Positions 3-13,565 of a stretch of DNA of 13,739 nucleotides are shown piece after piece (the first letter of the stretch is position 1; each line of letters starts with the position of its first letter). The translations under genes and the position numbers were made by a program. The notes under the pieces are model-generated. The model saw nothing but the letters and a program-made list of their open reading frames with translations, was not told the origin of the DNA and did not search any database. This stretch comes from Solirubrobacterales bacterium (GTDB lineage: Bacteria > Actinomycetota > Thermoleophilia > Solirubrobacterales > 70-9). The DNA is taken from NCBI GenBank assembly GCA_013694825.1, contig JACDBR010000247.1, forward strand, positions 1 to 13,739, read 5' to 3'.

Positions 3-1259
3 CTGCGAGATCGTGCCACGTCGCGCCGGAGGTGCCTAGCGCCGCTGGCGTCCTGGCCGTCGCGCGGCGCGGTCCGCGCTACTCGCCGGCCAAAGGAGAA
101 AGCAGCCGCGCCCGCCGCGGAGATCCAGCAGAGCCTGCTTCCTCCCCGGATCACGCGGATCACCGGTGGCGAGGTGGCATGCAACGTGCTTCCGAGCTAT
201 GACGTCGCGGGCGACTGGTTCGACATCGTCGAGAACCTCGACGGCGTCTGGATCACCGTGGCCGACGGCCTCGGAGGCAGTACGCGGGCGGCTGCCAGCA
301 GCGCCGTGGCGCTAGGAGCGCTTCGGGCAAGTCGGCGCAGCGGAGGGGCGATGACCGACGCGCTGATGCTGATGCATCACACGCTGAGCGAGATGCCGGG
401 GCCTCGCGCCGAGATGCACGCCGTCGCGGCGCACTGGGACCCGGCGACGCTTCGGCTCGATGTCGTCAGCTGTGGCCATGTTGCTCCGGTCGTGATTCGG
501 GCCAGCCGCGAGCCCGAGATCATCGACGTGAAGGCGGGGAGGGGTCTCGGTGGGCGCTCGAGTCCAAGGCCGAGCGAGACCGAGACCACGCTGGAGCCCG
601 GCGACAGGCTGCTGATGTTCTCCGACGGAGTCGCCAGGGAGGGCGACGGACAGGCCGGGCTCGGCCACCACGGCGTCATCCGGGCTGCGCTCGAGTCCGA
701 GCGCGGCAGCGCCGCCGACACGGTGAGGAAGATCCACACGGCGGTGCTCGCGTCAGCTGGGTCCGAGCTCGTCGATGACGCCACGGTCGTATGCCTGGCC
801 CGGGTAGCCCGCCCGGCCGCGGTTCATCGGCCCTACCCCAAGAGCCTCGAGCCCTCAGGCCCGCGGCGTCGGAGCACGATCAGGGTGGCGAGCGCGAAGA
901 CGACGAGGAAGCAGAGCAGGGCTACGGCGGCCTGGCCCGGCCGGATGGCGAAGAAATCGGCACCGAAGTCGTTGGCTCGCGCCAGCGTGGGGTCGGCTGC
1001 GATGCGGTCGTTCATGTCGACCGAGCTGCCGACTCCTGCGAGTGACCAGCGAGTCACGACCAGTGTCGCGAGACTCGAGATCGGCTCCGACATCCGCTCG
1101 AGCGGCACTATCGCCCCGGCGAAGAGCAGCTGGGGGATCAGGGTCAGCGGGATGAAGCTGGTTGCCTGCTCCTGGCTCGAGACGGCCGCCGACACGAGCA
1201 GGCCGAGCGCGACTGCCACCAGTCCCGTCAGGACAAGCAGCGCGGAGACCTCGAAGTAG
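3..1259 (+). CDS. SpoIIE/PP2C-type serine phosphatase, 5' end off the window
   Basis: This is a SpoIIE-family protein phosphatase, which removes phosphate from Ser/Thr, typically on anti-sigma-factor antagonists or other regulators. The frame is open to the left edge with no credible start. A GTG at 174 would remove the family-typical 'EIQQSLLPPRI' segment at 120-152, so the true start lies outside. Metal-binding motifs are present: GDWFD (210-224), an ADGLG segment (Asp at 264), SDG (Asp at 624) and DDAT (Asp pair at 774-779). The catalytic domain ends near 805. The frame then continues to 1259, and its last 427 bases overlap the convergent transporter gene. That tail is rich in Arg, Ser, Ala and Lys, looks like antisense coding, and may not be real. 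A TAG at 805-807 in another frame would end the protein exactly at the domain boundary. The family call is firm; the 3' end is doubtful. Confidence 0.8.
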   Translation: MRDRATSRRRCLAPLASWPSRGAVRATRRPKEKAAAPAAEIQQSLLPPRITRITGGEVACNVLPSYDVAGDWFDIVENLDGVWITVADGLGGSTRAAASSAVALGALRASRRSGGAMTDALMLMHHTLSEMPGPRAEMHAVAAHWDPATLRLDVVSCGHVAPVVIRASREPEIIDVKAGRGLGGRSSPRPSETETTLEPGDRLLMFSDGVAREGDGQAGLGHHGVIRAALESERGSAADTVRKIHTAVLASAGSELVDDATVVCLARVARPAAVHRPYPKSLEPSGPRRRSTIRVASAKTTRKQSRATAAWPGRMAKKSAPKSLARASVGSAAMRSFMSTELPTPASDQRVTTSVARLEIGSDIRSSGTIAPAKSSWGIRVSGMKLVACSWLETAADTSRPSATATSPVRTSSAETSK

Positions 1260-2800
1260 CTGCCGGCACTCTCCTCGAGCGGCCGAACCGCGAGCACGAG
1301 GTAGGTGAGGATCAGCGTCTGAAGCGTCACCACCGCGCCGAGCACGAGCAGCTTCGATCCCAGGTAGGCGCTCCAGCGAACCCCGATCGCCGCTTCTCGC
1401 ATGGTGACGGCCCGCTCCTTGACGATCTCGCGCGCCGAACTGATCGCGCCGAACCAGACCGCCGTGGTGGCGAGTATGAAGAGCAGCTGGATGGCGTAGC
1501 GCGGATCGCCGGCCGGGCCTGGCTTGAAGAGCCCGGAGCGAAAGAGCAGCGCGGCCGCGAAGCCGATCACGGGCACCTGGCCGAACAGGATCGCCAGGTT
1601 TCGCCTGTCGCGCATGAACAGGGTCAGGTAGCGCCGGCTCAAGACAGCGAGCTGGCGGCCCGTCCTCTGCCGCGCTCGCGGTGAGCCTGCCGGCCCCGGC
1701 TCGGGCGCCGCCTTTCCGCCGTCCGAGACGGGTTGGTGGTCGCGCTCGGGCCCCACCCACCGATCGGGCTCGCCGTCGCGGCCGGTCGCGGCCAAGCGGT
1801 CGTAGATCTGATCGAAATCAGTGACGCCGAAGAGCTCCTTCGCTTCGTCGGGCGGCCCGAAAAAGGCGAGCTGGCCGCCGCGCGCGAAGACGGCCAGCTT
1901 GTCGCAGAGGCCCAGGCTCCTCGTCGCGTGGGTGACCACCACCACCGCCCGCTCGCCCGGATGGGCAAGCTCGCGAAAGAGCCTCATCATCTGCGCCTCG
2001 AGCCCGGGGTCGAGCCCGGTGGTCGGCTCGTCGAGGAACAGCACGCTGGGACGATTGAGAAGCTCCGATGCGACTCCGGCGCGCTTTCGCTGGCCTCCCG
2101 ATAGCAGCTCGATGCGCTTGCCCGCGTGCTCTTCAAGCGCGAGCTCGACCAGCACCCGCTCGACCGTCGCTTGGCGCTCGCTTCGGCTCATGTCCGGTGG
2201 CAGCCGGAGCTTGGCGGCGTAGCCGAGCGCCTCGCGAACGCTGAGGGCACGGTGGACGATCTCATCCTGGGGCACGTAACCGATATCGGTCAGTCGAGCC
2301 GTTACGGGCTCGCCGTTGAGCGTCACCGTGCCCGACGAGGGCCGGGAGACGCCCGCCAGCGTCCTCAGCAGCGTCGTCTTGCCCGAGCCGCTCTCGCCGA
2401 TGATGCCGACGAGCTCCCCGGGGAGCACCGAGACCGAAGCTCGATCGAGGATCGGCCGGCCATCGACCTCGACGCTCACATCTCGAGCGTCGAGGCGCAG
2501 CGCTCCGCGATGGTTCGCGCGCCGGAACCGCGATCCGTCGAAATGGAGCTCGAATGGGCCGATGCCGAGGGTGTCGCCGTCGCGAATCACCGTGCGCTTG
2601 ACGGGCTGTCCGCCGACCCGGGTGCCGCACTTAGACCTCAGATCACGCAGCTCGACCAGGTCGCCGACCGCCTCGATCTCGGCGTGGAAGCGCGAGACGT
2701 TGACATCGTCGAGGACGATGTCGTTCATGTTGCTGCGGCCGATCGCGAGGCGGCCGCCACCGAACGTGATCACCCGGTCGGACTCGGCCTGCCCCTCCAC
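833..2800 (-). CDS. FHA domain-ABC ATPase-ABC2 permease fusion (half exporter)
   Basis: This 655-residue membrane transporter has an N-terminal phosphothreonine-binding FHA domain (about 10-90), an ABC ATPase (about 105-335), a Pro/Gly/charged linker (340-385) and an ABC-2 permease with about six membrane segments (402-420, 437-455, 483-503, 518-540, 549-567, 622-642). ATPase motifs are complete: Walker A GESGSGKT at 135, Q-loop Gln178, LSGGQ at 233, Walker B VLFLDEP at 253 and switch His291. The order resembles ABCG-type half transporters and mycobacterial Rv1747, which has two FHA domains and is controlled by Ser/Thr kinase phosphorylation; here there is one. FHA residues Gly21-Arg22, Ser36 and His39 are present, but the usual Asn of the 'NGT' motif is Cys58. 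The start is GTG at 2800; no Shine-Dalgarno is visible and no upstream start exists before an in-frame stop. It probably acts as a homodimer. The substrate is unknown; lipid or glycolipid export is an inference from family. Confidence 0.92.
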   Translation of the reverse strand: MEGQAESDRVITFGGGRLAIGRSNMNDIVLDDVNVSRFHAEIEAVGDLVELRDLRSKCGTRVGGQPVKRTVIRDGDTLGIGPFELHFDGSRFRRANHRGALRLDARDVSVEVDGRPILDRASVSVLPGELVGIIGESGSGKTTLLRTLAGVSRPSSGTVTLNGEPVTARLTDIGYVPQDEIVHRALSVREALGYAAKLRLPPDMSRSERQATVERVLVELALEEHAGKRIELLSGGQRKRAGVASELLNRPSVLFLDEPTTGLDPGLEAQMMRLFRELAHPGERAVVVVTHATRSLGLCDKLAVFARGGQLAFFGPPDEAKELFGVTDFDQIYDRLAATGRDGEPDRWVGPERDHQPVSDGGKAAPEPGPAGSPRARQRTGRQLAVLSRRYLTLFMRDRRNLAILFGQVPVIGFAAALLFRSGLFKPGPAGDPRYAIQLLFILATTAVWFGAISSAREIVKERAVTMREAAIGVRWSAYLGSKLLVLGAVVTLQTLILTYLVLAVRPLEESAGSYFEVSALLVLTGLVAVALGLLVSAAVSSQEQATSFIPLTLIPQLLFAGAIVPLERMSEPISSLATLVVTRWSLAGVGSSVDMNDRIAADPTLARANDFGADFFAIRPGQAAVALLCFLVVFALATLIVLRRRGPEGSRLLG

Positions 2801-2945: not shown

Positions 2946-3677
2946 ATGTCAGTAGAGCAGTCACTGGCCCAATACCGCGAGACGGAGAGCGGCGAGTCGT
3001 TCAGCCTGCAGAACTCGAAGCTGCTGAAGGTCGAGCTGGCGGACGTGACGATCCAGGCCAAGCTGGGCGCGATGGTCGCCTATCAGGGCGACGTCAAGTT
3101 CGAGCACGCGGGCTCCGGCGGGCTCTCGCGGATGCTGAAGAAGGCGGTGACCAACGAGGGCCTCGACCTGATGAAGATCTCGGGCAGCGGGGAGGTCTTT
3201 CTGGCCGACCTCGCCCAGGAGGTCCAGCTGATCCATCTCTCCGACGACTTCATCACCGCGAATGGGGCCAACGTTCTGGCCTTCGACGCCGGGATCGATT
3301 GGGACGTGCGCCGAGTCGAGGGCGTATCGGGGATGCTCGGCGGCGGGCTCTACAACATGGAGCTGAAGGGCTCCGGCTGGGTCGCGCTGGTCTCCAACGG
3401 CACGCCGATGATGCTCGAGGTCTCAGGGGAGGACACCTTCGCGGACCCGAACGCGGCGATCACCTGGTCGAGCGGCCTGAAGACCGACATCAAGACCGAC
3501 GTCAACCTCAAGACGCTGATCGGTCGCAGCTCGGGGGAGACGATCCAGATGGCCTTCCGTGGCCAGGGTTGGGTGCTCGTCCAGCCCTCCGAAGCGCCGC
3601 CGAAGGGCGCGATGACGGCCACCGGAGGAGCTCAGGGCGGAGCAGCCGGCGGGATCGGAGGCCTGCTCAATCGCTAG
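2946..3677 (+). CDS. AIM24 family protein (formerly DUF124)
   Basis: This 243-residue protein belongs to the AIM24/TIGR00266 family. The yeast member is a mitochondrial inner-membrane protein that supports cristae organisation; bacterial members have no settled function and form a double beta-barrel-like fold. Family features seen are the N-terminal 'FSLQNSKLLKVEL' stretch, 'LGAMVAYQGDVKFE' (40-53), 'ISGSGEVFLA' (78-87), 'LKGSGWVALVSNG' (140-152) and 'FRGQGWVLVQP' (204-214). The residues after 215 form a Gly/Ala-rich tail. There is no signal peptide or membrane helix. The gene stands alone on the + strand, diverging from the FHA-ABC gene and converging with the lipid-modification operon. Its very good ribosome binding site suggests good expression. 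Family assignment is confident; the cellular role is unknown. Confidence 0.9.
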   Translation: MSVEQSLAQYRETESGESFSLQNSKLLKVELADVTIQAKLGAMVAYQGDVKFEHAGSGGLSRMLKKAVTNEGLDLMKISGSGEVFLADLAQEVQLIHLSDDFITANGANVLAFDAGIDWDVRRVEGVSGMLGGGLYNMELKGSGWVALVSNGTPMMLEVSGEDTFADPNAAITWSSGLKTDIKTDVNLKTLIGRSSGETIQMAFRGQGWVLVQPSEAPPKGAMTATGGAQGGAAGGIGGLLNR

Positions 3678-3707: not shown

Positions 3708-4490
3708 CTACCGCGCGGCGCTGACCGACGAGCTCTCGAGGATCAGCCCGGCTACCCGCTCCGGCTCGTCCCAGGTTGGCGTGTGGCCGGCGCCCTCCAG
3801 CACCAGGTAGCGAGTGCCGGGCGGCATCCGCTCGGGTCGCGGCGGGCCGAGCAGACGATCTGCGGAGCCCCATGCGATCGTCACGGGAACGCCGACCAAC
3901 TCGGCGTGCTCGAAGACGCCGAGTCGCATCTGCTCGTTGGCGGCGTCGTAGCCGGGCGAGTCGAGCCAACCGCTGATCAGCTTCTCGGCTTCCTCGCGGG
4001 TAAGGCGGTCGGGATGGGCGAGGCTCGTCTGGAGCAGCGCCGTGCGGACCCCGCGGTTGGCGAGCGCCGCACCCAGCAGCGGGCGAAGGCCCCTGCCGAT
4101 CCGTCGCAGGTCGCCTCGCTTCGGTCCGAGCGGCGAGCGCCACAGGCCGGCCGGCGAGATCGCGCAGATCGAGCGCGTTTCGCCGGCCTTCGCCATCTCC
4201 AAGGCGACCCAGCCTCCGAGCGAGTTGCCGGCAACGTGCGGGCGCTCGATCCCTTGGGCGCGCACGAACTCGGCGACTGCCCTGCCCAGGTTCGCGGCGC
4301 TCGCAGGCGTGCCCTCGGAAAGCTCGGGGGAGAGGCCGAAGCCCGGCATGTCGATCGCGATCACGTCACGCTCGCTCGCGAGCCGGTCGAGCACCGGATC
4401 CCAGATCATCCCTGCGCCTCCGAGGCCGTGGATCAGCAGCAGCGGCTCGCCCGAGCCGCGGCGCACGTGGGAAAGCTCCGGCGCGGCCAC
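3708..4490 (-). CDS. alpha/beta hydrolase, last gene of lipid operon
   Basis: With the GTG start at 4490 this is a 260-residue soluble alpha/beta hydrolase, likely an esterase or lipase-like enzyme. The oxyanion-hole motif HGLGG is at 21-25 and the nucleophile elbow GNSLGG has Ser90. Asp211 in 'WGSADR' and His236 in 'GAGHTPTWDEPE' complete the triad. No signal peptide is visible, so it is cytoplasmic. The GTG lies one base after the TGA of the methyltransferase gene, which suggests translational coupling. An ATG at 4529 (273 residues) is the alternative and would overlap the upstream gene by 38 bases; neither has a clear Shine-Dalgarno. The open frame continues to 4778, but that part mirrors the methyltransferase gene and reads as Arg/Ser-rich shadow. 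Its position suggests action on the modified lipid or its precursor, which is inference. Confidence 0.85.
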   Translation of the reverse strand: MAAPELSHVRRGSGEPLLLIHGLGGAGMIWDPVLDRLASERDVIAIDMPGFGLSPELSEGTPASAANLGRAVAEFVRAQGIERPHVAGNSLGGWVALEMAKAGETRSICAISPAGLWRSPLGPKRGDLRRIGRGLRPLLGAALANRGVRTALLQTSLAHPDRLTREEAEKLISGWLDSPGYDAANEQMRLGVFEHAELVGVPVTIAWGSADRLLGPPRPERMPPGTRYLVLEGAGHTPTWDEPERVAGLILESSSVSAAR

Positions 4491-4491
4491 C

Positions 4492-5823
4492 TCAGGACAC
4501 CGGCGCCGGCGAGCGTGGATCGCTCTCATCGGACGCCCGCACGGAGAGATTGGCGGGATCGCCGCCGTTGGTCGAGCCCGAGCGCGAGCCCGGCTCCGGC
4601 GACGAGCGCACGGTGGCCGGCCGCCATGCGGGCTTCGCGAAGACGTACTGGAGGTCGCGGATCCGGCGCTCTGCGAAGCCCGCCTCCGAGAAAGCCAGGT
4701 AGAAGTTCCACAGTCGGCCGAAGCGACGGTCGTAGCCGCTCGAGGCCAGCTCCGAGTGCGCCGCGTTGAAGCGCTCACGCCAGGCCGCGAGCGTGAGCGC
4801 GTAGTCGCCTGAGATGTCGTCGAGCCAGATCGTGTGCATGTCGGTCAGCTCTCCCACGAGGGCTTCGATCACACGATCCGACGGCAAGCAGCCGCCAGGA
4901 AATACGTGTGTGTTGGCGAAGCTCCGCGATGCCTTCTCGAGCTCGTAGAGGCCGTCGTCGATCACGATCGCCTGCAGGAACATCAGGCCGTCGGGGCGCA
5001 GAAGCTCGGAGCACTTGCGAAAGTAGGTTTCGAAGTACTGCCAGCCGACCGCCTCGATCATCTCGATCGAGACGAGCTTGTCGTAGCGACCGAGCAGGTC
5101 GCGGTAGTCCTGGCCCAAGACCTCGATCCGATCGCCCAGCCCAGCCTCCTCGATCCGCGCCAAGGCGAACTCGCGTTGCTCGCGCGAGATCGTCGTCGTC
5201 GTGACGCGACAGCCGCGAGTGCTCGCGGCATGGATCGCGAGACCGCCCCAGCCGGTTCCGATCTCGAGCAGGTGATCGGCCGGCCCGAGCTCGAGCTGCT
5301 CGCAGATTCGCTCGAGCTTGTTCTGCTGGGCCTGCTCGAGGCTCTCGGCCGGGTCTTCGTAGACCGCAGCCGAATACATCAGCGAGGAGTCGAGGAAGGA
5401 CTCGAAGAGCTCGTTGCCGAGGTCGTAGTGAGCCGAGATGTTGCGCCGGGCGCCGTGGCGGGTGTTGTGTGGCACCCGCCGTGCCAGCTTCTGAAGCGGC
5501 GAGGCGAACGGATGGATACGGCGGCGCCAGCCGTCGAGCGCCGCCATGTTTCGCGCCGCGAGGCGGATCAGCCCGGGCAGGTCGTCGCAGTCCCAGAAGC
5601 CGTCGACGTAGCCCTCGGCGAGGCCGATCGAGCCGCCCAGCAGCCGCGGCCAGGCCCGCGCGTCGTTGATCCGGACTTCCACCCGCAAGTCCGTTGCCGG
5701 CCCCCCGAAGCCGAGTCGTCGACCGTCCTCGACTAGCTCCAGCCGGCCCCCTCGAAGCTGCGTCAGGAGTCTTAACGCCAGTCGGCGCGCGGCCTGACTC
5801 CGGGCTCTCTCCAGAGCACTCAC
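4492..5823 (-). CDS. cyclopropane-fatty-acid-synthase-like SAM methyltransferase
   Basis: This 443-residue protein belongs to the CFA/mycolic acid cyclopropane synthase family, which transfers a methylene or methyl group from S-adenosylmethionine to the double bond of acyl chains in membrane phospholipids. Visible features are the lipid-side motif HYDLGN (132-137), SAM motif LLEIGTGWGG (185-194), 'SIEMIEAVG' (252-260, Glu257), 'FPGGCLPS' (308-315) and Tyr341. Aligned by motif with E. coli Cfa, bicarbonate ligands Glu239, Ile268 and Tyr317 are kept as Glu257, Ile286 and Tyr341. Cys139 is replaced by Ala152 ('MYSAAVY') and His266 by Gln284 ('FLQAIVI'). The GTG start at 5823 overlaps the stop of the DUF1365 gene in a GTGA, so the longer open frame (to 6069) is shadow. 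The last 40 or so residues are Ser/Pro/Gly-rich. The product may be a methylated rather than cyclopropanated acyl chain. Confidence 0.93.
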   Translation of the reverse strand: MSALERARSQAARRLALRLLTQLRGGRLELVEDGRRLGFGGPATDLRVEVRINDARAWPRLLGGSIGLAEGYVDGFWDCDDLPGLIRLAARNMAALDGWRRRIHPFASPLQKLARRVPHNTRHGARRNISAHYDLGNELFESFLDSSLMYSAAVYEDPAESLEQAQQNKLERICEQLELGPADHLLEIGTGWGGLAIHAASTRGCRVTTTTISREQREFALARIEEAGLGDRIEVLGQDYRDLLGRYDKLVSIEMIEAVGWQYFETYFRKCSELLRPDGLMFLQAIVIDDGLYELEKASRSFANTHVFPGGCLPSDRVIEALVGELTDMHTIWLDDISGDYALTLAAWRERFNAAHSELASSGYDRRFGRLWNFYLAFSEAGFAERRIRDLQYVFAKPAWRPATVRSSPEPGSRSGSTNGGDPANLSVRASDESDPRSPAPVS

Positions 5824-6647
5824 CGGCGGGCTCCCGGATCGGGGTGGGCGAAGTAGGGGACGCCCTTGAGCTTCAGCCGCAGCGCCTGCCAGTAGATCTT
5901 GGCCACGACCTGCGCCGTCATTGCCGGGTAGCGAATAAGCATCCGGCGAAGCAACGGCGCCGAGAGCTCGCGGCGGCGCATCGAGAGCGTCGCCTCGAAG
6001 GCGGGCTCGCCTTGGCTCGAGGACGAGATGTCGACCCGCAGCGTGCGTCCCGGCAGGCCGGTGCTCCACTGGTAGGTGTGGTCCATCGACATCAACGGCG
6101 AGACGTGGAAGCTCTTCTCGATCCGGCCGCTGATCGCGCGCGCCGGCCCTTCTGCGGCCGGCTCGTCCTCGCCGGCCGCGATCACGTAGGCATGGCGCTC
6201 GCCCCAGGGCGTGTTGTGGACCTCGGCCAGCACCGCCGTAGGGTCGAGCGCGCCGGCCGGGTGGCAGTAGAAGAAGCTGACCGGGTTGAAGCAGTGGCCG
6301 AGGTAGCGCAGATTGGTGAGCAGCGTGACCGGGCCGTCAAGGCGCTCTCCGGTGCGCTCGGCGACGAGCTCGCGGACGCACTCGGCGAGCGGGCGCTCGG
6401 GGTCGCCGAGGTGGTCGGCGCGCTTGAACCAGGCGGGCGCCGGGCGCCGGGCCGACCACAGCGGAAACGGGTCGAGCACGGCCGGCAGCTCGTCGAGGTC
6501 GAGGTAGGCCATGAACAGCGGGTAGGCGAACTGGTGGGAGACCGGCACGAGCCGGCGGTGGGAGACCCAGCCCTCGTAGATCGCCGAGACGGGCCCGCCG
6601 TTCGGGCCGCTCAGATGCCGCGGCGTGCCGTGCTCGGCGACGCTCAT
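5820..6647 (-). CDS. DUF1365 family protein
   Basis: This 275-residue protein of the DUF1365 family has no established biochemical function. Conserved stretches are 'IYEGWVSHRR' (23-32), 'HQFAYPLFMAYLDLDEL' (38-54), 'RYLGHCFNPVSFFYC' (114-128), 'AEVHNTPWGERHAYV' (141-155), 'KSFHVSPLMSMDHTYQW' (178-194) and 'VAKIYWQALRLKLKGVPYF' near the C-terminus. There is no signal peptide. The ATG at 6647 overlaps the TGA of the upstream flavoenzyme gene (ATGA), and its own TGA overlaps the GTG of the methyltransferase. In many bacteria DUF1365 genes lie between an FAD-dependent amine-oxidase-like gene and a CFA-like gene, as they do here. That points to a joint role in acyl-chain modification. Family assignment is confident; the activity is not known. 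Confidence 0.92.
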   Translation of the reverse strand: MSVAEHGTPRHLSGPNGGPVSAIYEGWVSHRRLVPVSHQFAYPLFMAYLDLDELPAVLDPFPLWSARRPAPAWFKRADHLGDPERPLAECVRELVAERTGERLDGPVTLLTNLRYLGHCFNPVSFFYCHPAGALDPTAVLAEVHNTPWGERHAYVIAAGEDEPAAEGPARAISGRIEKSFHVSPLMSMDHTYQWSTGLPGRTLRVDISSSSQGEPAFEATLSMRRRELSAPLLRRMLIRYPAMTAQVVAKIYWQALRLKLKGVPYFAHPDPGARR

Positions 6648-7975
6648 GCGGCCAGCTCCAGCTCAGGCTCAGGCTCAAGCGAGGCGCCCGCGTTCAATCG
6701 CCGGCACGCCCGTACCGCGCTCCAGCAGCCGTCCTCGTGGAAGGCCCAGCGCCAGTAGGCGCCGCAGTAGTGGATCCGGTCGGCGCCGCTGATCTCCCCC
6801 CAGCGCCGTTGCGCGGCGGCGGCACTCTGATCGATCGCCGGGTGGGCGTAGGGGATCGTGGCCAGCCGCTTCGCGGGGTCGACCTCGTGCGCCATGTTGA
6901 GCGAGACGAAGTAGTCGCGCTCGGCGTCGAGGCGCTGCAGGTTGTTCATCCAGTAGGTCACCAGCGTCGCCTCGGAGGGTCGTTCGCGCAGATGGAAGTT
7001 CCAGCTCGCCCAGGCGCTGCGGCGCTGGGGCATCAGCGAGGCGTCGGTGTGCAGGGTCGCCTCGTTGGCGGAGTAGGGGATCGCCCCGAGCACCTCGCGC
7101 TCGGCCTCGGTCGGCCGGTCGAGCATCGCCAGCGCCTGGTCTGAGTGGGCTGCGATCACCACCTCGTCGAAGCGCTCAGCCGGCTCGCCGTCGGCCCGCA
7201 CGATCACGCCGGTCTCGGTTCGCTCGACCGAGCGGACGGGCGCTGAGAGGCGGATCCGGTCGGCGAAGGACCTGGTCAGCGCGTCGACGTAGACCCGCGA
7301 GCCTCCGATGACGGTCGCCCATCGGGGCCGGCCGAGCTGGCGCAGCATCCCGTGGTTGTCGAGGAACTCGGCCAGAAACCCGAGCGGGAAGGTCTCGTAT
7401 CCCTCGCTGCCCGTCGACCACACGGCCGAGACGAGCGGCGCGATCGCACGCTCGGCGAAGAAGCTCGAATAGCCGCCGCGACGCAGGAACTCACCGACGG
7501 TCGGTGCGTCGGGATCTCCGATCAGTGGCCGGACCGCGCGGTTGAAGCGGAGCTGCTCAGCGATCAGGCGCAGGAAATCGCGGTCGAGGAGGTTGGAGCG
7601 CTGGGCGAACAGCCCGCGCCGAGTGTTGGCGTACTCGAACTCGCCGTTGGGGGAGGCGATCGACATCCCCATCTCGGAGTCCTGGGTCGCGACCTCCAGC
7701 CGCTCGAGCAGGGCTGAGAACGCGGGGTAGTTCGTGTCGTTTAAGACGATGAAGCCGGTGTCGACGCCGATCCGGCCGCGCGGGTCGTCGACCTCGATCG
7801 TGTTGGCGTGGCCGCCGAGCCGCGAGCCGGCCTCGAAGACCGTGATCTCGTGATCGGTGTGGAGTAGATGGGCGGCGGTCATCCCGGAGACCCCAGTGCC
7901 GATCACGGCGATCCGCCTCGCTCCCGCGCCAGGGTCCAATCCTGCGCCGGCGTCGGCCCGTGCGTCGGCAGTCAT
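6644..7975 (-). CDS. FAD-dependent oxidoreductase, amine oxidase/desaturase-like
   Basis: Translated from ATG 7975 this is a 443-residue flavoprotein of the NAD(P)-binding/amine oxidase superfamily. The N-terminal Rossmann motif GTGVSG (26-31) with 'VFEAGSRLGGHANT' following (Glu48 as ribose-binding acid, GG at 54-55) is the FAD-binding signature. 'VDTGFIVLN' and 'VIGGSRVYVDAL' are typical of the subgroup found next to CFA-like and DUF1365 genes. The C-terminal 'YCGAYWRWAFHEDG' resembles the usual second FAD contact. It probably oxidises or desaturates an acyl chain in concert with the downstream methyltransferase. The frame extends to a TTG at 8026, with a GTG at 7990 preceded by a GAAGG; the ATG is chosen because it leaves a short N-terminus before the Rossmann fold, but no start has a strong ribosome binding site. 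The C-terminus encodes a short Glu-Pro/Leu repeat. It is the first gene of the operon. Confidence 0.88.
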   Translation of the reverse strand: MTADARADAGAGLDPGAGARRIAVIGTGVSGMTAAHLLHTDHEITVFEAGSRLGGHANTIEVDDPRGRIGVDTGFIVLNDTNYPAFSALLERLEVATQDSEMGMSIASPNGEFEYANTRRGLFAQRSNLLDRDFLRLIAEQLRFNRAVRPLIGDPDAPTVGEFLRRGGYSSFFAERAIAPLVSAVWSTGSEGYETFPLGFLAEFLDNHGMLRQLGRPRWATVIGGSRVYVDALTRSFADRIRLSAPVRSVERTETGVIVRADGEPAERFDEVVIAAHSDQALAMLDRPTEAEREVLGAIPYSANEATLHTDASLMPQRRSAWASWNFHLRERPSEATLVTYWMNNLQRLDAERDYFVSLNMAHEVDPAKRLATIPYAHPAIDQSAAAAQRRWGEISGADRIHYCGAYWRWAFHEDGCWSAVRACRRLNAGASLEPEPELELAA

Positions 7976-8057
7976 TCGCGCATTCGCCACGCGCGCGCCT
8001 TCGTAGTGGTGATTGCCGCCGGTCAAGTGATGGAAGGCGCCCGCCCAGGTTCGCTCG

Positions 8058-8123: not shown

Positions 8124-9815
8124 ATGCTCGCCGCCGTGATCGCCGGGGCACGCAGCATCGCAAGCCTGGCCCTCCTCGCCGCCGCGCTCGCCCCGTCAGT
8201 GGCCGCAGCGGCGGATGATCCGGCGCTTCAGCCGCCGTTCGGCGGCCAGCAGCCGCCGCCGCTCAAGCGGGTTGCCTCCGACGCTCGTCCTGCCGGCTTT
8301 GAGCTCTCGGCCGGCGAGGCGACCCGGTTCGCGCGGACGAGCAAGCCGTTCGGCGAGGAGCTGGCAGCCGAGCCGAGCGCCCGAGCCGTCCCCTACCTGC
8401 GCGGGGAGAACTGGCAGATCGAGTTGGTCTCAGGCCGGGGTGAGGACTCAGAGCGGCTCGCCTTCGCCGTCGTCGAGGACGCGACCGGCGATCTACGCGA
8501 GGCCTGGAACGATCAACAGCTCGGCAGCGAGCTTGCGCGCGGCTACGACGGCGCAATCGCCCAAACGGTCAACTCGCCCTGGCTGTGGATCGGGCTGTCG
8601 CTGCTCTTCTGCCTGCCGTTCGTCGACCCGCGGCGCCCATTTCGCCTCCTGCACCTCGACCTTCTGGCGCTGGTCGGCCTCGGCGCCTCGCTCGCCCTCT
8701 ACAACCAGGCTGAGATCACGGCATCGGTGGCGCTCACCCTGCCCGTGCTCGGCTACCTCTTGGGGCGCTCGCTTTGGACGGGCTTGCGCCCGCAGCCGCA
8801 ATCCGGGCCCCTCGTCCCGATCGTCGGCGTACGGGTGCTGGCGATCCTGGCGCTGGCACTCGGCGCCGGGCGGATCGGCCTGAACGTCGCCGACTCGCGC
8901 GTCATCGACGTCGGCGTAGCCGGAGTCGTCGGCGCTGATCGGATCGCCGACGGGGAGGAGCTCTACGGGGGCGAGTTCTCGCCGGGGCTCGATCTGCGAG
9001 GTGACGTCTACGGGCCGGCCAACTACCTTGCCTACGCGCCCTTCGAGCAGGCCTTCTCCTGGGAGGGCGTGTGGGAGGAGGTCTCGGCCGCGCACGCCGC
9101 CGCGATCGTCTTCGACCTGCTGAGCGCCGTCGGGCTGCTGCTGCTCGGCCGCCGCCTGCGCGCCGGGCCCGAGGGCCGGGCCCTCGGCGTCGCGCTCGCC
9201 TTCGCCTGGCTCTCCTACCCGTTCACGCTGTACACGATGAACGCCAACGCCAACGACTCGCTCGTCGCGGCGCTGGGGATCGGTGCGCTGCTGGCGGTGC
9301 GCTCGGCCCCGCTTCGTGGAGCCGCCGTCGCGGTCGCGGCGCTGGCCAAGTTCGGCTCCGCGGCGACCGCACCGCTGTTTGCGACCGGTACGGGCGAGCG
9401 GCGCCGACGCGACATCGCGATCTTCTCGCTCGTCTTCGGCCTGATCTCGATCGGCCTGTTCGCGCCTTTCATCCCCGACGGCGGCGTGGCGGAGGTTTAC
9501 GAGCGCACCTTCGGCTATCAGGCCTCGCGCTCCTCGCCCTTCTCGCTCTGGGGCCAGGCGCCCTCGCTGGAGCCGTTGCAGGCGGTCGCGCGGGCGCTGG
9601 CCGTGCTGCTGGCCGTCACGGTCGCGTTCGTACCGGCCCGCCGCACGGTCTTCCAGCTCGCCGCGCTGGCGGCCGCGGTGACCATCGCCGTCCAGCTCAC
9701 GGCGACCCACTGGTTCTACTTCTACGTCGTCTGGTTCCTGCCGTTCTTCCTCGTCGCGAGCTTCGGTGAGACCGGCGGCGAGGAGCACCCGGACGCGCAG
9801 GCCCGCTCCGTCTAG
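8124..9815 (+). CDS. polytopic membrane protein with exported N-terminal domain, GT-C-like
   Basis: A 563-residue protein. Residues 1-30 look like a signal sequence ending in an Ala-rich 'SVAAAADD'. Residues 31-150 form a soluble exported domain; 'NWQIELVSG...LAFAVVEDATGDLREAW' (96-128) recalls PepSY-like folds. The rest has about 11 membrane segments (roughly 152-168, 178-194, 197-215, 233-250, 322-342, 353-372, 379-408, 431-451, 488-504, 507-525, 528-547). The loop 'DVYGPANYLAYAPFE' (294-308) and 'MNANANDSLVAAL' (372-384) resemble polyprenyl-phosphate-dependent GT-C/GT87 mannosyltransferases, which build extracytoplasmic glycans. No classical catalytic Asp pair could be identified with certainty, so an enzymatic role is a guess. 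The ATG at 8124 has no clear ribosome binding site; a GTG at 8136 is possible. The gene diverges from the lipid operon and ends 14 bases before a tRNA. Confidence 0.85.
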   Translation: MLAAVIAGARSIASLALLAAALAPSVAAAADDPALQPPFGGQQPPPLKRVASDARPAGFELSAGEATRFARTSKPFGEELAAEPSARAVPYLRGENWQIELVSGRGEDSERLAFAVVEDATGDLREAWNDQQLGSELARGYDGAIAQTVNSPWLWIGLSLLFCLPFVDPRRPFRLLHLDLLALVGLGASLALYNQAEITASVALTLPVLGYLLGRSLWTGLRPQPQSGPLVPIVGVRVLAILALALGAGRIGLNVADSRVIDVGVAGVVGADRIADGEELYGGEFSPGLDLRGDVYGPANYLAYAPFEQAFSWEGVWEEVSAAHAAAIVFDLLSAVGLLLLGRRLRAGPEGRALGVALAFAWLSYPFTLYTMNANANDSLVAALGIGALLAVRSAPLRGAAVAVAALAKFGSAATAPLFATGTGERRRRDIAIFSLVFGLISIGLFAPFIPDGGVAEVYERTFGYQASRSSPFSLWGQAPSLEPLQAVARALAVLLAVTVAFVPARRTVFQLAALAAAVTIAVQLTATHWFYFYVVWFLPFFLVASFGETGGEEHPDAQARSV

Positions 9816-9916: not shown

Positions 9917-10981
9917 CTACTCCGCCCAGTGAAAGCCCGTCTGGCTCGGCACCGGGTCCATCGGGCTGGTCGGCAGATCCGCCGGCACGGACGGGTCGTT
10001 GTAGCCCGACGGAGCGATGTCGTTGGACGTGTGGGCGTGAAACAGCGAGGCCAGGTATTGGATCTGACCGCGCCCCGGGCCGACCTCGCCCTGACCGCCG
10101 CCGTAGATCTCGATACCGCGCTCGGCGCAGTGCTCGTAGACCGAGAGCAGCTCCTCGAGCGAGCCGAAGCGCGAGGGCTTGGAGTTGATCGCCCTGGGCT
10201 CGGTCTCGAGGCCGGTGATGTCGGCCAGCGAGTGCAGTGGCGCGTCCCAGGTGATCCGCTCGGCGTGCGGGGCGAGCGCCTCGCGGGCCCCGGGATGCTC
10301 CAGGTCGGGGTCCTCGATCCAGGCGTTCGGGAAGGCCTCGGCGACGGCGGCGTAGAGCTCGGGGTCCGTATCCACATCGACCGGCGTGCCCCGGTAGTGG
10401 CCCTTGAGGTCGAGCACGTCGACGCCCGCCAGTCCCTGCAGGGCGGCGATCAGCTTGGCGTCCCAGTCGTTCTCGGGGTCGAGCTTGAATCGCAGGTCCG
10501 GGTAGCGCTCCAGCCGATCGCGCACCGGGCCGACGCTCGACGCGTCGCCGCTGCCCGAGAGCCGGGTCGAGCAGACGAAGCTCAGCGGTCTCGGCTCGAG
10601 GCCGAGCGCCGCGTGCAGGGCCAGCCCTGCCTGGCGCAGCGCGAGGTCGAGCGCCGCCGACTCGAAGGCCCAGCGGCGGTAATGGGCCGAGGCGTCCATC
10701 AGCGGGGCCGCTCCGGGAAAGAGGTCGAGCGAGCCGACGAGCTCGCAGAGCTCACCCAGGGTCGATGGAGCGCTCAGGTCGTGGACCGGCCCGGCGTCGC
10801 GGTGGGCGATGTGGTCGAGGACGTCGTAGACGACGTCCTCCCCTTGGCCCTCCTCGCCGCCGCCGTGGAGGTGGATGACCGTCGACGGGCGCGTGAACGA
10901 TCCGTAGGTGCGGTCGCGCTCCTCAAGCTCGTAGCCGGAGATCGAGATCGGAAGCGCGGCAAGGCTCTCGTAGTGGCTCAC
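9917..10981 (-). CDS. enolase-superfamily protein (mandelate racemase/muconate lactonising-like)
   Basis: With GTG at 10981 this is a 354-residue protein resembling the enolase superfamily, which abstracts a proton alpha to a carboxylate. An N-terminal capping region with 'YELEERDRTYGSFTRPSTVIHLHG' is followed by a barrel with 'RFKLDPE' (Lys166), 'LDLKGHY' (Asp191), 'WIEDPD' (Glu223), 'ITWDAP' (Asp246) and 'INSKPSRFGS' (Lys268). This is the expected order of first acid/base, three metal ligands and second-half Lys. The usual KxK appears as RFK. The C-terminal 'YGGGQGEVGPGRGQIQ' is consistent with the last barrel strands. The substrate cannot be told: dipeptide epimerase, o-succinylbenzoate synthase and sugar-acid dehydratase are all relatives, and no menaquinone or peptidoglycan gene lies nearby. 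The frame extends to 11092 but would read through the hairpin upstream; GTG 10981 precedes the 'SHYESLAALPI' start typical of a folded N-terminus. Confidence 0.8.
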   Translation of the reverse strand: MSHYESLAALPISISGYELEERDRTYGSFTRPSTVIHLHGGGEEGQGEDVVYDVLDHIAHRDAGPVHDLSAPSTLGELCELVGSLDLFPGAAPLMDASAHYRRWAFESAALDLALRQAGLALHAALGLEPRPLSFVCSTRLSGSGDASSVGPVRDRLERYPDLRFKLDPENDWDAKLIAALQGLAGVDVLDLKGHYRGTPVDVDTDPELYAAVAEAFPNAWIEDPDLEHPGAREALAPHAERITWDAPLHSLADITGLETEPRAINSKPSRFGSLEELLSVYEHCAERGIEIYGGGQGEVGPGRGQIQYLASLFHAHTSNDIAPSGYNDPSVPADLPTSPMDPVPSQTGFHWAE

Positions 10982-11096: not shown

Positions 11097-11831
11097 CTAG
11101 CCGTTCTGGATGAAGCCGGTCTTCTTGACCCTGCGGAGAATCCGCTTGGCTCCGAGCGGCTGATCGAACGGGCCGTTGGGCGCGATGCCGTCGACGCCGC
11201 GGAGGATCTGGCCGATCAGTCCGGCATGCCGGCCCTCGATCGTGACGATCGACAGCGCCGCCTTGCCGACTGCCTTCGACTCGATGTTGTAGGCCTGACC
11301 GAGGTAGGCCGAGACGCCCGCGTTCTCCAGCTTGAACGACGTGCGCTGGAACTTCTCCTGATCGGAGGTGGTGCCTCGGAAGTCGAAGTTCGGCTTCTTG
11401 GCGGCCTTGTTGCCGAGCACGTCCTTGAGCGCCTTGACGTGCGCCTTCTCGTCGCGCACGGTGGCCTCGAGGAACTCGCGCGTGTCCTTGTCGGTGATGA
11501 AGCCGCCGCCCTCGTCGTCGTTGCGCTTGGCCTCCTTGTAGAACTCCGCCTCGAGGTACTCGAGCGTCAGGGCGTAGTTGAGGATGCCGATGTCGCCCTT
11601 GCCGAAGCTCTTCGGGGGACGATCGGCGCCATCGGCGCCAAGCGCCGTGCCCGGCACGAGCCCGCCGAGGATCGCGCCACCGCCGACGACCGCGCCGCCG
11701 GCCAGGCCGGCCTTCTTGAGGAAGCCGCCGCGAGTGTCGCCATCGCGCTCGAGCTGGAAGCTCGTCCGCTCGGCGCTGTCGCGCACCGCTCCGTCGACGT
11801 CGATGTCTTCAATCCTGAGATCCGAACCCAT
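11097..11831 (-). CDS. exported ferritin-like domain protein
   Basis: From ATG 11831 this is a 244-residue protein of the ferritin-like (Ferritin_2/DUF4439-type) family. The four-helix region carries the expected carboxylate and histidine ligands: 'EYLEAEFYKEA' (Glu91, Glu94), 'RDEKAHVKAL' (Glu128, His131), 'KLENAGVSAY' (Glu169) and 'IEGRHAG' (Glu199, His202). These would bind a di-iron or similar metal centre. Residues 34-66 resemble a Tat-type signal ('TRGGFLKKAGLAGGAVVGGG'), but the second Arg of the twin pair is Gly and there is an unusually long acidic N-region of 33 residues. It is probably exported or membrane-anchored. A GGAAGG about 12 bases upstream supports this ATG over the longer frame that begins at 11888. 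The gene stands alone between two hairpins. Its function may be iron storage or oxidative-stress protection, by analogy only. Confidence 0.88.
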   Translation of the reverse strand: MGSDLRIEDIDVDGAVRDSAERTSFQLERDGDTRGGFLKKAGLAGGAVVGGGAILGGLVPGTALGADGADRPPKSFGKGDIGILNYALTLEYLEAEFYKEAKRNDDEGGGFITDKDTREFLEATVRDEKAHVKALKDVLGNKAAKKPNFDFRGTTSDQEKFQRTSFKLENAGVSAYLGQAYNIESKAVGKAALSIVTIEGRHAGLIGQILRGVDGIAPNGPFDQPLGAKRILRRVKKTGFIQNG

Positions 11832-11907
11832 AGCGAAGGCCCACCTTCCGTTGTATGCGAGTTGAGGGACCGCGTGAGGGCATCCCATCGTTCACCCCGT
11901 ATTACGA

Positions 11908-11999: not shown

Positions 12000-13565
12000 C
12001 TACTCGCGCTCGCGCAGCTCGATTCGGCGGATCTTTCCGGTCAGGGTCTTCGGCAGCTCGCCGGTGAACTCGATCTCGCGCGGATAGGCGTAGGCCGAGA
12101 GCCGGTCGCGGACGAAGCCCTGGATCTCCTTCGCGAGCTCGTCCGAGGGCTCGTGGCCCTCGGCGAGGACGATGAAGCCCTTGACTATGTTGCCGCGCAA
12201 CTCGTCGGGCTTGGCTACCGCGGCAGCCTCGGCGACGGCCTCGTGCTCGAGGCAGGCCGACTCGACCTCGAACGGCCCGATCCGGTAGCCGGCGGCGATG
12301 ATCACATCGTCGGCGCGCCCCTCGTACCAGTAGTAGCCGTCCTCGTCCTGACTCGCCGCGTCCTTGGTGTGAAACCACTCGCCGGCGAAATCGGCCTGGG
12401 TGTCCTCGGGCCGTTCCCAGTAGCCCAGCGGGTAATGCGGGTTGGAGCGCGCACGCAGGCAGATCTCGCCCCTGTCTCCCTGCTCAACGGGCTGCTCGTC
12501 CTCGTCGAGGATCTGGACGTCCCAGCCCGGGGCGGGCTTGCCCATCGAGCCCTCGCGGACCTCCATGAACGGGTAGTTGGCGACCAGCGGATAGGACTCG
12601 GTCAGTCCGTAGTAGTCGAGCACCGTGACCCCGTACTGGTCGCGGAACCAGCGGATCGCCTCCGGGTTGAGCGGCTCGCCGGCGGAGCAGACGCGGCGGA
12701 ACTTCTGCGGATAGCGCTCGCCCGCGTCGGAGATCGCCATCATCGAGCGCATCGCAGTTGGCGTAGTGAACACGTTCGTCACCTCGTGGCGGGAGAGGAA
12801 GTCGAGCTGCTGGTGGGGGTCGAACCCGCCCTCGCGCTGCAGGACGCACTGGACCGCGCCGCGCATCCAGGGGCCGAGCAGCGGCGCGATCCCCGCCGCC
12901 CAGGCCCACTCGCCCATGCCGTGAAAGAGCTCACCGTCGGCGACCTCGTGGCAGTAGGTGAACTCGTTGTGGGCGAGGATGTAGCGGTGGGCGTGGACGA
13001 CGCCTTTGGCGGCCCCGGTGGTGCCTGAGGTGTAGTAGAGCTGCGCGGCGTCGTCGGCACCCGTGTCGTAGATCTCGCGCTCCGCGTCGTGCTCGCTGAG
13101 CCAGGAGGCCTCCTCGTCGAGCGCGATCACCTTCGCGTTTGCGTCCTTGAAGCGCCCAGCGTTGGCCTCGTCGGTGATCACCAGCTTGGCGCCCGAGTCC
13201 TCGAGCCGGTGGCGGATCCCGTCGTCCCCGTAGAGGACCGACATCGAGAGCAGGATGCCGCCGAGCTTCCAGACGCCGAAGAAGACAGCCGCGGCCTCGG
13301 GCGTCGGCGGTAGGACGACGGCGACGCGGTCGCGCTGCTCGATGCCCTCGTTCGCCAGGGCGTTGGCCGCCTGGTTGGAGAGCCGCTGGAGCTCGCCCCA
13401 ATCGACGTCGCGGCGGGCTCCGTCGTGGTGCTCCCAGATCATCGCCGGCTTGTCGGCCGGGTGCTTGTCGCAGACGGCGATCGCGATGTTGAAGCGGTCG
13501 GGAACGTCCCAGCGGTGCTTCGCCACGGCCTCCTCGTAGGACTCGAACCTCGTGCCCGTCGCCAT
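12000..13565 (-). CDS. AMP-forming acyl-CoA synthetase (medium-chain/ACSM-like)
   Basis: A 521-residue member of the ANL (acyl-CoA synthetase) superfamily, which activates a carboxylic acid to an acyl-adenylate and then to acyl-CoA. The ATP P-loop 'YTSGTTGAAKGV' is at 178-189, 'DYYGLTES' at 317-324 and Asp402 in 'EWFHTKD' contacts ribose. The hinge 'GRADDVI' is at 416-422, 'AGYRIGPFEVE' at 425-435, and the catalytic Lys511 is in 'PKTLTGKIRR'. This last stretch also matches the PxxxxGK site that is often lysine-acetylated in such enzymes. The length and 'GYRIGPFEVE' are closest to acetyl-/medium-chain-type synthetases rather than long-chain FadD, but the exact substrate cannot be read. The ATG at 13565 is preceded by a good ribosome binding site (GAGGAGAGGAG). 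It is cytoplasmic and ends in a hairpin. Confidence 0.93.
   Translation of the reverse strand: MATGTRFESYEEAVAKHRWDVPDRFNIAIAVCDKHPADKPAMIWEHHDGARRDVDWGELQRLSNQAANALANEGIEQRDRVAVVLPPTPEAAAVFFGVWKLGGILLSMSVLYGDDGIRHRLEDSGAKLVITDEANAGRFKDANAKVIALDEEASWLSEHDAEREIYDTGADDAAQLYYTSGTTGAAKGVVHAHRYILAHNEFTYCHEVADGELFHGMGEWAWAAGIAPLLGPWMRGAVQCVLQREGGFDPHQQLDFLSRHEVTNVFTTPTAMRSMMAISDAGERYPQKFRRVCSAGEPLNPEAIRWFRDQYGVTVLDYYGLTESYPLVANYPFMEVREGSMGKPAPGWDVQILDEDEQPVEQGDRGEICLRARSNPHYPLGYWERPEDTQADFAGEWFHTKDAASQDEDGYYWYEGRADDVIIAAGYRIGPFEVESACLEHEAVAEAAAVAKPDELRGNIVKGFIVLAEGHEPSDELAKEIQGFVRDRLSAYAYPREIEFTGELPKTLTGKIRRIELRERE

Follow-up and report, generated by a model that had tools for sequence, protein, structure and literature searches.

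The closest described relatives of the system reported here are the bacterial ufa genes. In Rhodobacter sphaeroides, cis-vaccenate is methylated by UfaM (RSP2144) and carried on to a methyl-diene by UfaD (RSP1091); the furan further requires UfaO (RSP1090), a DUF1365 protein (PMC7380195). In Rhodopseudomonas palustris, the run RPA2571-2570-2569 has the order ufaD-ufaO-ufaM, and these three genes sufficed for a monomethyl furan in R. sphaeroides (PMC7380195). The genes ufaD, ufaO and ufaM are also consecutive in Halomonas. Expression of the Halomonas UfaM in Escherichia coli yielded a peak that was assigned to 11-methyl-12-octadecenoate; cyclic chains were seen in that strain as well (PMC12089945). 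Here we analyse a related operon in a stretch of 13,739 nucleotides (contig JACDBR010000247.1, assembly GCA_013694825.1; hereafter the window) from a Solirubrobacterales bacterium of the class Thermoleophilia. As judged from sequence comparisons, the probability that this operon encodes a UfaM-UfaD-UfaO type pathway acting on membrane phospholipids is roughly three in four. A pathway already described would thus be extended to a lineage that has received little study; our analysis adds a sequence mark in the methyltransferase (Gln266), a nested pattern of loss, and a family in which the DUF1365 protein and the methyltransferase are fused.

The operon consists of four consecutive minus-strand open reading frames, from position 8026 down to 3708. 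From the sequence and Pfam matches, they encode in order a flavoenzyme (D), a DUF1365 protein (O), a CMAS-family methyltransferase (M) and an alpha/beta hydrolase (H):

6644..8026, minus strand: D, ufaD-like putative desaturase of the flavin amine-oxidase family, 460 amino acids as a TTG open reading frame; PF01593 (1.1e-21), PF13450
6644..6647, minus strand: D stop and O start, ATGA, 4-base overlap (sequence and script check)
5820..6647, minus strand: O, ufaO-like DUF1365 protein, 275 amino acids; PF07103 (1.9e-78)
5820..5823, minus strand: O stop and M start, GTGA, 4-base overlap (sequence and script check)
4492..5823, minus strand: M, ufaM-like putative S-adenosylmethionine (SAM) methyltransferase of the CMAS family, 443 amino acids; PF02353 (8.5e-73)
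3708..4490, minus strand: H, alpha/beta hydrolase, linked neighbour, 260 amino acids; PF12697 (2.4e-22)

M ends in TGA and, after one base, H starts with GTG; the automatic gene caller sets other starts for M and H, and its M-H gap of -38 was left unused. Homologs align with D only from residue 38 on (about base 7915), so the start of D is unsure and the first 37 residues of the TTG frame may not be made. A first-pass annotation of this DNA had listed four minus-strand genes with ATGA, GTGA and TGA-g-GTG junctions and had named their families; the sequence and the PF01593, PF07103, PF02353 and PF12697 matches agree with it on both counts. The source genome is a draft (1.47 Mb, 302 contigs, 54.5% complete). 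Because D-O-M-H stands in the same order in the same-genus genome G001 (one contig, 97% complete; called M-H gap 0 bases), the operon is neither an assembly artefact nor a chance arrangement. A named locus from Solirubrobacterales (Thermoleophilia), L119, keeps the same gene arrangement over long stretches as L041 of G034, which belongs to the window's own family, f1; this collinearity supports placing the window in Thermoleophilia.

That these genes form a Ufa-type operon had been suggested earlier without a role for each gene; families and order bear the suggestion out, and the per-gene assignments could be taken from PMC7380195. Like UfaD as that paper defines it, D is an NAD/FAD-binding (nicotinamide and flavin adenine dinucleotide), phytoene-desaturase-like protein adjoining a ufaO-type gene. 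O is a DUF1365 protein (1.9e-78) adjoining a ufaD-type gene, as expected for UfaO, and M, as expected for UfaM, belongs to the CMAS family and lies with genes of the UfaD and UfaO types. This supports D as a putative UfaD-type desaturase, O as a candidate for UfaO-type oxygen insertion and M as the probable UfaM-type enzyme of the first methylation. Families, gene order, overlaps, clade membership, co-occurrence and fusion were observed directly; each chemical step is modelled by homology on R. sphaeroides and R. palustris. M would use SAM to methylate a cis-unsaturated acyl chain, with vaccenate and oleate as candidates that would place the ring differently, and so give a branched monoene. 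D would desaturate this monoene to a conjugated methyl-diene; O would then insert oxygen from O2 and close a monomethyl furan ring. D and O would act as one unit, and M kept alone would leave the branched monoene as end product. In G001 we saw a single M match at E up to 1e-20 and no second methyltransferase of the kind called M2 below, so a monomethyl furan would be the expected product. The earlier proposal, that the operon builds an unusual acyl chain out of an unsaturated phospholipid, is, in our judgement, the best reading and probably right in kind. The operon is thereby given a candidate product class in soil bacteria, few of which are cultured. No link between furan fatty acids and Solirubrobacterales was found among the literature matches listed. 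A furan fatty acid of Agrococcus was considered as support and set aside: its chain has 12 carbons and no ring methyl, and its authors found no UfaO-like enzyme (PMC9323897).

The gene order recurs widely. Named genomes were scanned, and the best 80 of 146 relatives, ranked by similarity to the window's DUF1365 protein, were taken as a global set covering eight named phyla, with 6 loci unplaced. By script, D lies upstream of O in 79/80 loci and M downstream in 76/80. The sole D miss (L074) has O at a contig end. Four loci were scored as lacking M downstream: L091 and L099 do carry it (539 and 543 bits) in upstream-extended open frames, L077 ends 138 bases after O, and in L067 no M was seen in the 766 bases after O. 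Four-base overlaps were scored by script at D-O in 58/103 loci and at O-M in 54/97. Among annotated clusters, that of Azospirillum adjoins sigma-70-family and ChrR-family genes, that of Salinivibrio a MerR-family regulator and a photolyase, and that of a Streptomyces plasmid sigK and an anti-sigma gene. A similar cluster is under SigK control in mycobacteria. In Chlamydomonas, one DUF1365 gene and two CFA-type genes are co-induced by singlet oxygen (PMC4067076). No ChrR or extracytoplasmic function sigma gene was identified in the window.

Other genes were seen near these clusters. A second CMAS-related enzyme, M2, lies near D-O-M in 50/80 loci (within L053-L132) and is a candidate FufM; the closest PDB match of the one example tested is coclaurine N-methyltransferase. 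A short-chain dehydrogenase gene (cluster c5; one member tested) adjoins M in L029, L047, L048, L049, L051 and L193, from other families, and such genes also lie near proteobacterial clusters. Two records of metagenome-assembled genomes titled Klebsiella pneumoniae (L071, L076) carry D-O-M; these names look doubtful.

We compared M with E. coli Cfa at the five bicarbonate-site positions C139, E239, H266, I268 and Y317 (PMC3132707). The window protein has A, E, Q, I and Y at these positions, and scores 254.8 against NCBIfam NF008686, below its cut-off of 400. Since two of the five residues differ, "cyclopropane synthase" was rejected as a simple name for the third gene. The comparison was extended to 108 M proteins: 76 from the global set, 20 from Thermoleophilia with D-O, that of the window, 7 solo and 4 with D-O elsewhere in the genome. 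Glu239 and a Gln at the position of Cfa His266 are present in 108/108, the residue after Glu239 is Ala in 105 and Thr in 3, and position 139 is variable (C 42, S 48, A 17, G 1). His266 is kept in all 17 of the more distant paralogs from relatives (M3), nine of which come from genomes also carrying M (G013, G017, G018, G026, G031, G032, G053, G055, G058), the other eight being from genomes that lack M; among the 17, L231 clusters with the M2 proteins. His266 is likewise present in 51/52 M2 proteins, the remaining one having a gap. In an 81-row tree (every fourth global M, every fifth M2, three added plasmid records, rows below 300 amino acids left out; short search), the 54 M rows are set apart from all others by a branch with a Shimodaira-Hasegawa-like approximate likelihood ratio test (SH-aLRT) value of 99. 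The five residues have been called strictly conserved outside plants, with the same Gln in cotton (PMC3132707); on these alignments, the bacterial M clade departs from that rule. Gln at Cfa His266 together with Ala or Thr after Glu239 thus separates, in the proteins analysed here, M encoded beside DUF1365 from Cfa-type paralogs, and the two are often annotated alike.

The distribution of the three genes is nested. In a first sample of 61 genomes, source genome included, M was called above 345 bits (the next best match has 178.5) and D at E up to 1e-20. O was present in 25/61 genomes, M in 32/61 and D in 27/61, namely the same 25 plus G020 and G051, the latter with a weak match (32%). No genome had O without M (0/25), and seven had M without O (G002, G010, G014, G029, G031, G035, G052). 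On the M tree (32 rows), D-O presence needs at least 6 changes. Genes on both sides identified the chromosomal slot in five loci: that of L195 holds H and M without D or O, those of L196, L197 and L198 hold M alone, and that of L200 holds M alone with D-O elsewhere in the genome. In a class sample of 140 genomes, O was counted in 48, M in 51 and D in 45, and D never occurred without O. G099, which by cut-off has O without M, has M beside O by profile (369 bits). Three genomes had O without D: G118, with D in two pieces, G156, with D cut by the contig start, and G135. M without O was found in G002, G010, G052 and G139. On the simplest reading, O and D depend on each other and on M, whereas M is of use by itself. 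Such nesting agrees with a pathway running from M to D and O, and supports that order independently of alphaproteobacterial genetics; moreover, the M-only genomes make the question of the end product testable.

O and M can also be one protein. Twenty loci were fetched, most for equal lengths of the O and M open frames and a few for other reasons; 18 of them (L236-L253), from 17 genomes all belonging to family f5, encode O and M as a single open frame; UfaD, where the sequence covers it, has a frame of its own. Pfam confirmed both domains in the one fused example tested, and Glu-Ala-Gln stands at 239, 240 and 266 in 18/18 fused M domains. The fusion was found in 17/18 DUF1365 genomes of f5 in the sample; the remaining one, G154, carries O at the end of one contig and M at the end of another. 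A DUF1365-methyltransferase architecture had already been listed once, for Desulfococcus, in a survey of 2008 (PMC2613160), so the fusion itself is not new; no link of such a fusion to furan lipids was found among the literature matches listed. Together with the oxidase-CMAS fusion of plants, it suggests that these enzymes work closely together.

Several points weigh against the assignment to the Ufa pathway. Identity with the characterised UfaM, UfaD and UfaO would rest on family, order and published text. The 80 global loci were picked by similarity to the window's own DUF1365 protein, and the class sample overlaps the first one. G020 has D (387 bits) without O or M of this type, the match ending 8 bases from the contig end. 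Lastly, Gln266 is a mark of the clade and not proof of the product, because cotton GhCPS1 has Gln at H266 yet makes cyclopropanes (PMC3132707).

The place of the hydrolase bears on the first alternative, which follows the first-pass annotation in taking H as a working fourth member: all four genes would form one pathway, H releasing or remodelling the furan or methyl-diene chain from the phospholipid. The junctions speak for it, as M and H are one base apart in the window and -10 to +16 bases apart (script) in six other f1 loci (L032, L033, L038, L040, L046, L195). Ser90, Asp211 and His236, a putative triad taken from the fold family, are conserved in 32, 33 and 33 of 33 homologs, so H is probably active. 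Close homologs (above 195 bits) occur in 19/61 genomes, 12/25 with O against 7/36 without (Fisher p 0.025, relatedness uncorrected). An alpha/beta hydrolase also ends the Streptomyces plasmid cluster, though it gave no meaningful alignment with H and was rejected as its ortholog. However, 13/25 DUF1365 genomes have no close homolog, and D, O and M of R. palustris sufficed for monomethyl furan in R. sphaeroides (PMC7380195). The H clade (12 rows, SH-aLRT 99) has seven members beside M (the window, G001, G011, G014, G018, G023, G026) and five without M beside them (G002, G013, G020, G021, G033; that of G002 placed by search match, the gene caller having drawn another frame in L207). DUF1365 was not found in four of these five genomes, and G020 has D cut at a contig end. 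The related H of three family f3 loci is separated from M by a wider gap, of about 0.8 kb in L029 and L030 and some 170 bases in L031. Since the genes flanking H in several of the five clade members without M recur beside other members, H was probably inherited at the slot with or without D-O-M. It is probably not an obligate step, as shown by the pathway genomes without a close homolog, its occurrence without the pathway and the f3 spacing. A four-gene pathway therefore appears unlikely, and H is probably a linked neighbour of independent or optional use, for instance in lipid turnover. As for the four-gene order in Thermoleophilia, it recurs as D-O-M-H in G001 and M-H is tight in f1.

Less likely still, and in our view improbable, is that M is a plant-type cyclopropane synthase, with D and O acting later on the cyclopropane or only supporting M, like the oxidase domain of the cotton enzymes. 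Cotton synthases do combine Gln at H266 with a fused FAD oxidase domain, and GhCPS1 yields more cyclopropane with this domain, but an Agrobacterium pair of oxidase and cyclopropane synthase gave no cyclopropane in yeast in the available text of the same study (PMC3132707). Halomonas UfaM gave the 11-methyl-12-ene in E. coli, with cyclic chains also present (PMC12089945), and DUF1365 would be left without a clear role. A methyl-branched saturated product such as 10-methylstearate, with the flavoenzyme as a reductase, is very improbable: Actinobacteria do use a methyltransferase, BfaB, with a flavoenzyme, BfaA (PMC5660069), but the window flavoenzyme is of the PF01593 amine-oxidase type at the position of UfaD, and DUF1365, which goes together with D in our samples, would have no role.

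Returning to the Ufa-type pathway, D and O show conserved residues. In D, H73, D89, H225, H326, H430 and E431 are invariant among the rows reaching them (104-row alignment). In O, H30, R32, N145 and K178 are invariant in 105/105 homologs and in an 84-row alignment including three plasmid records, in which H181 is Tyr in 2/84 rows. The AlphaFold2 model of O (predicted local distance difference test 90.7) is a beta-barrel with weak calycin-like structural matches. UfaO may be a lipid-holding barrel in which His30, Arg32, Asn145 and Lys178, with His/Tyr 181, would carry the oxygen chemistry. This is one part of a broader and speculative proposal: the Thermoleophilia pathway would be modular and repeatedly cut back, with D-O as one unit, M alone giving branched monoenes, O-M a fusion enzyme in one family, and H acting on the modified chains. 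It is doubtful that all of its parts hold together.

The slot is bordered in the window by two genes on the plus strand:

8124..9815, plus strand: divergent gene at one slot edge (cluster c10); no Pfam match in the window copy, relative L200 matches GT87
2946..3677, plus strand: convergent AIM24-family gene at the other slot edge; PF01987, same neighbour in same-genus locus L033

AIM24 was rejected as a linked partner: the cluster c4 gene found after H or M in several relatives encodes a metallo-beta-lactamase-fold protein, not AIM24 (one member tested). The window further contains a SpoIIE-type phosphatase frame (174-1259, plus strand), an FHA domain and ATP-binding cassette transporter in one protein (833-2800, minus strand), a 354-amino-acid protein without Pfam match (9917-10981, minus strand), relatives of which lie near the slot in G001 (L033) and G002 (L207), a ferritin-like gene (11097-11888, minus strand) and an AMP-binding, acyl- or acetate-coenzyme A ligase-like gene (12000-13565, minus strand).

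Among known systems, BfaA-BfaB of Mycobacterium chlorophenolicum likewise joins a methyltransferase and a flavoenzyme on an unsaturated chain. BfaA probably belongs to another flavoenzyme family than the window's PF01593 type. The pair makes 10-methylstearate, and the available text describes no DUF1365 partner (PMC5660069). E. coli Cfa (PDB 6bqc) shares the CMAS family and E239, I268 and Y317 with M, but M has Gln for H266, Ala for C139 and Ala for the His after E239, and Cfa falls outside the M clade in the 81-row tree. The plant cyclopropane synthases show the same oxidase and CMAS pairing, but in one fused protein: Arabidopsis AT3G23510 resembles both UfaD and UfaM (PMC10940516), and the DUF1365 protein is encoded apart (AT1G30130). 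The cotton synthases share with M the Gln at H266 (PMC3132707). In Halomonas sp. YLGW01, a Gammaproteobacterium, the three ufa genes are consecutive as in the window, and UfaM gives the 11-methyl-12-ene chain in E. coli; no hydrolase is described with the cluster in the available text (PMC12089945). Finally, RPA2571-2570-2569 of R. palustris and RSP1091, RSP1090 and RSP2144 of R. sphaeroides represent the same three families. Compared with them by family and order, the window operon has the order of R. palustris, in another phylum and class and with a hydrolase downstream.

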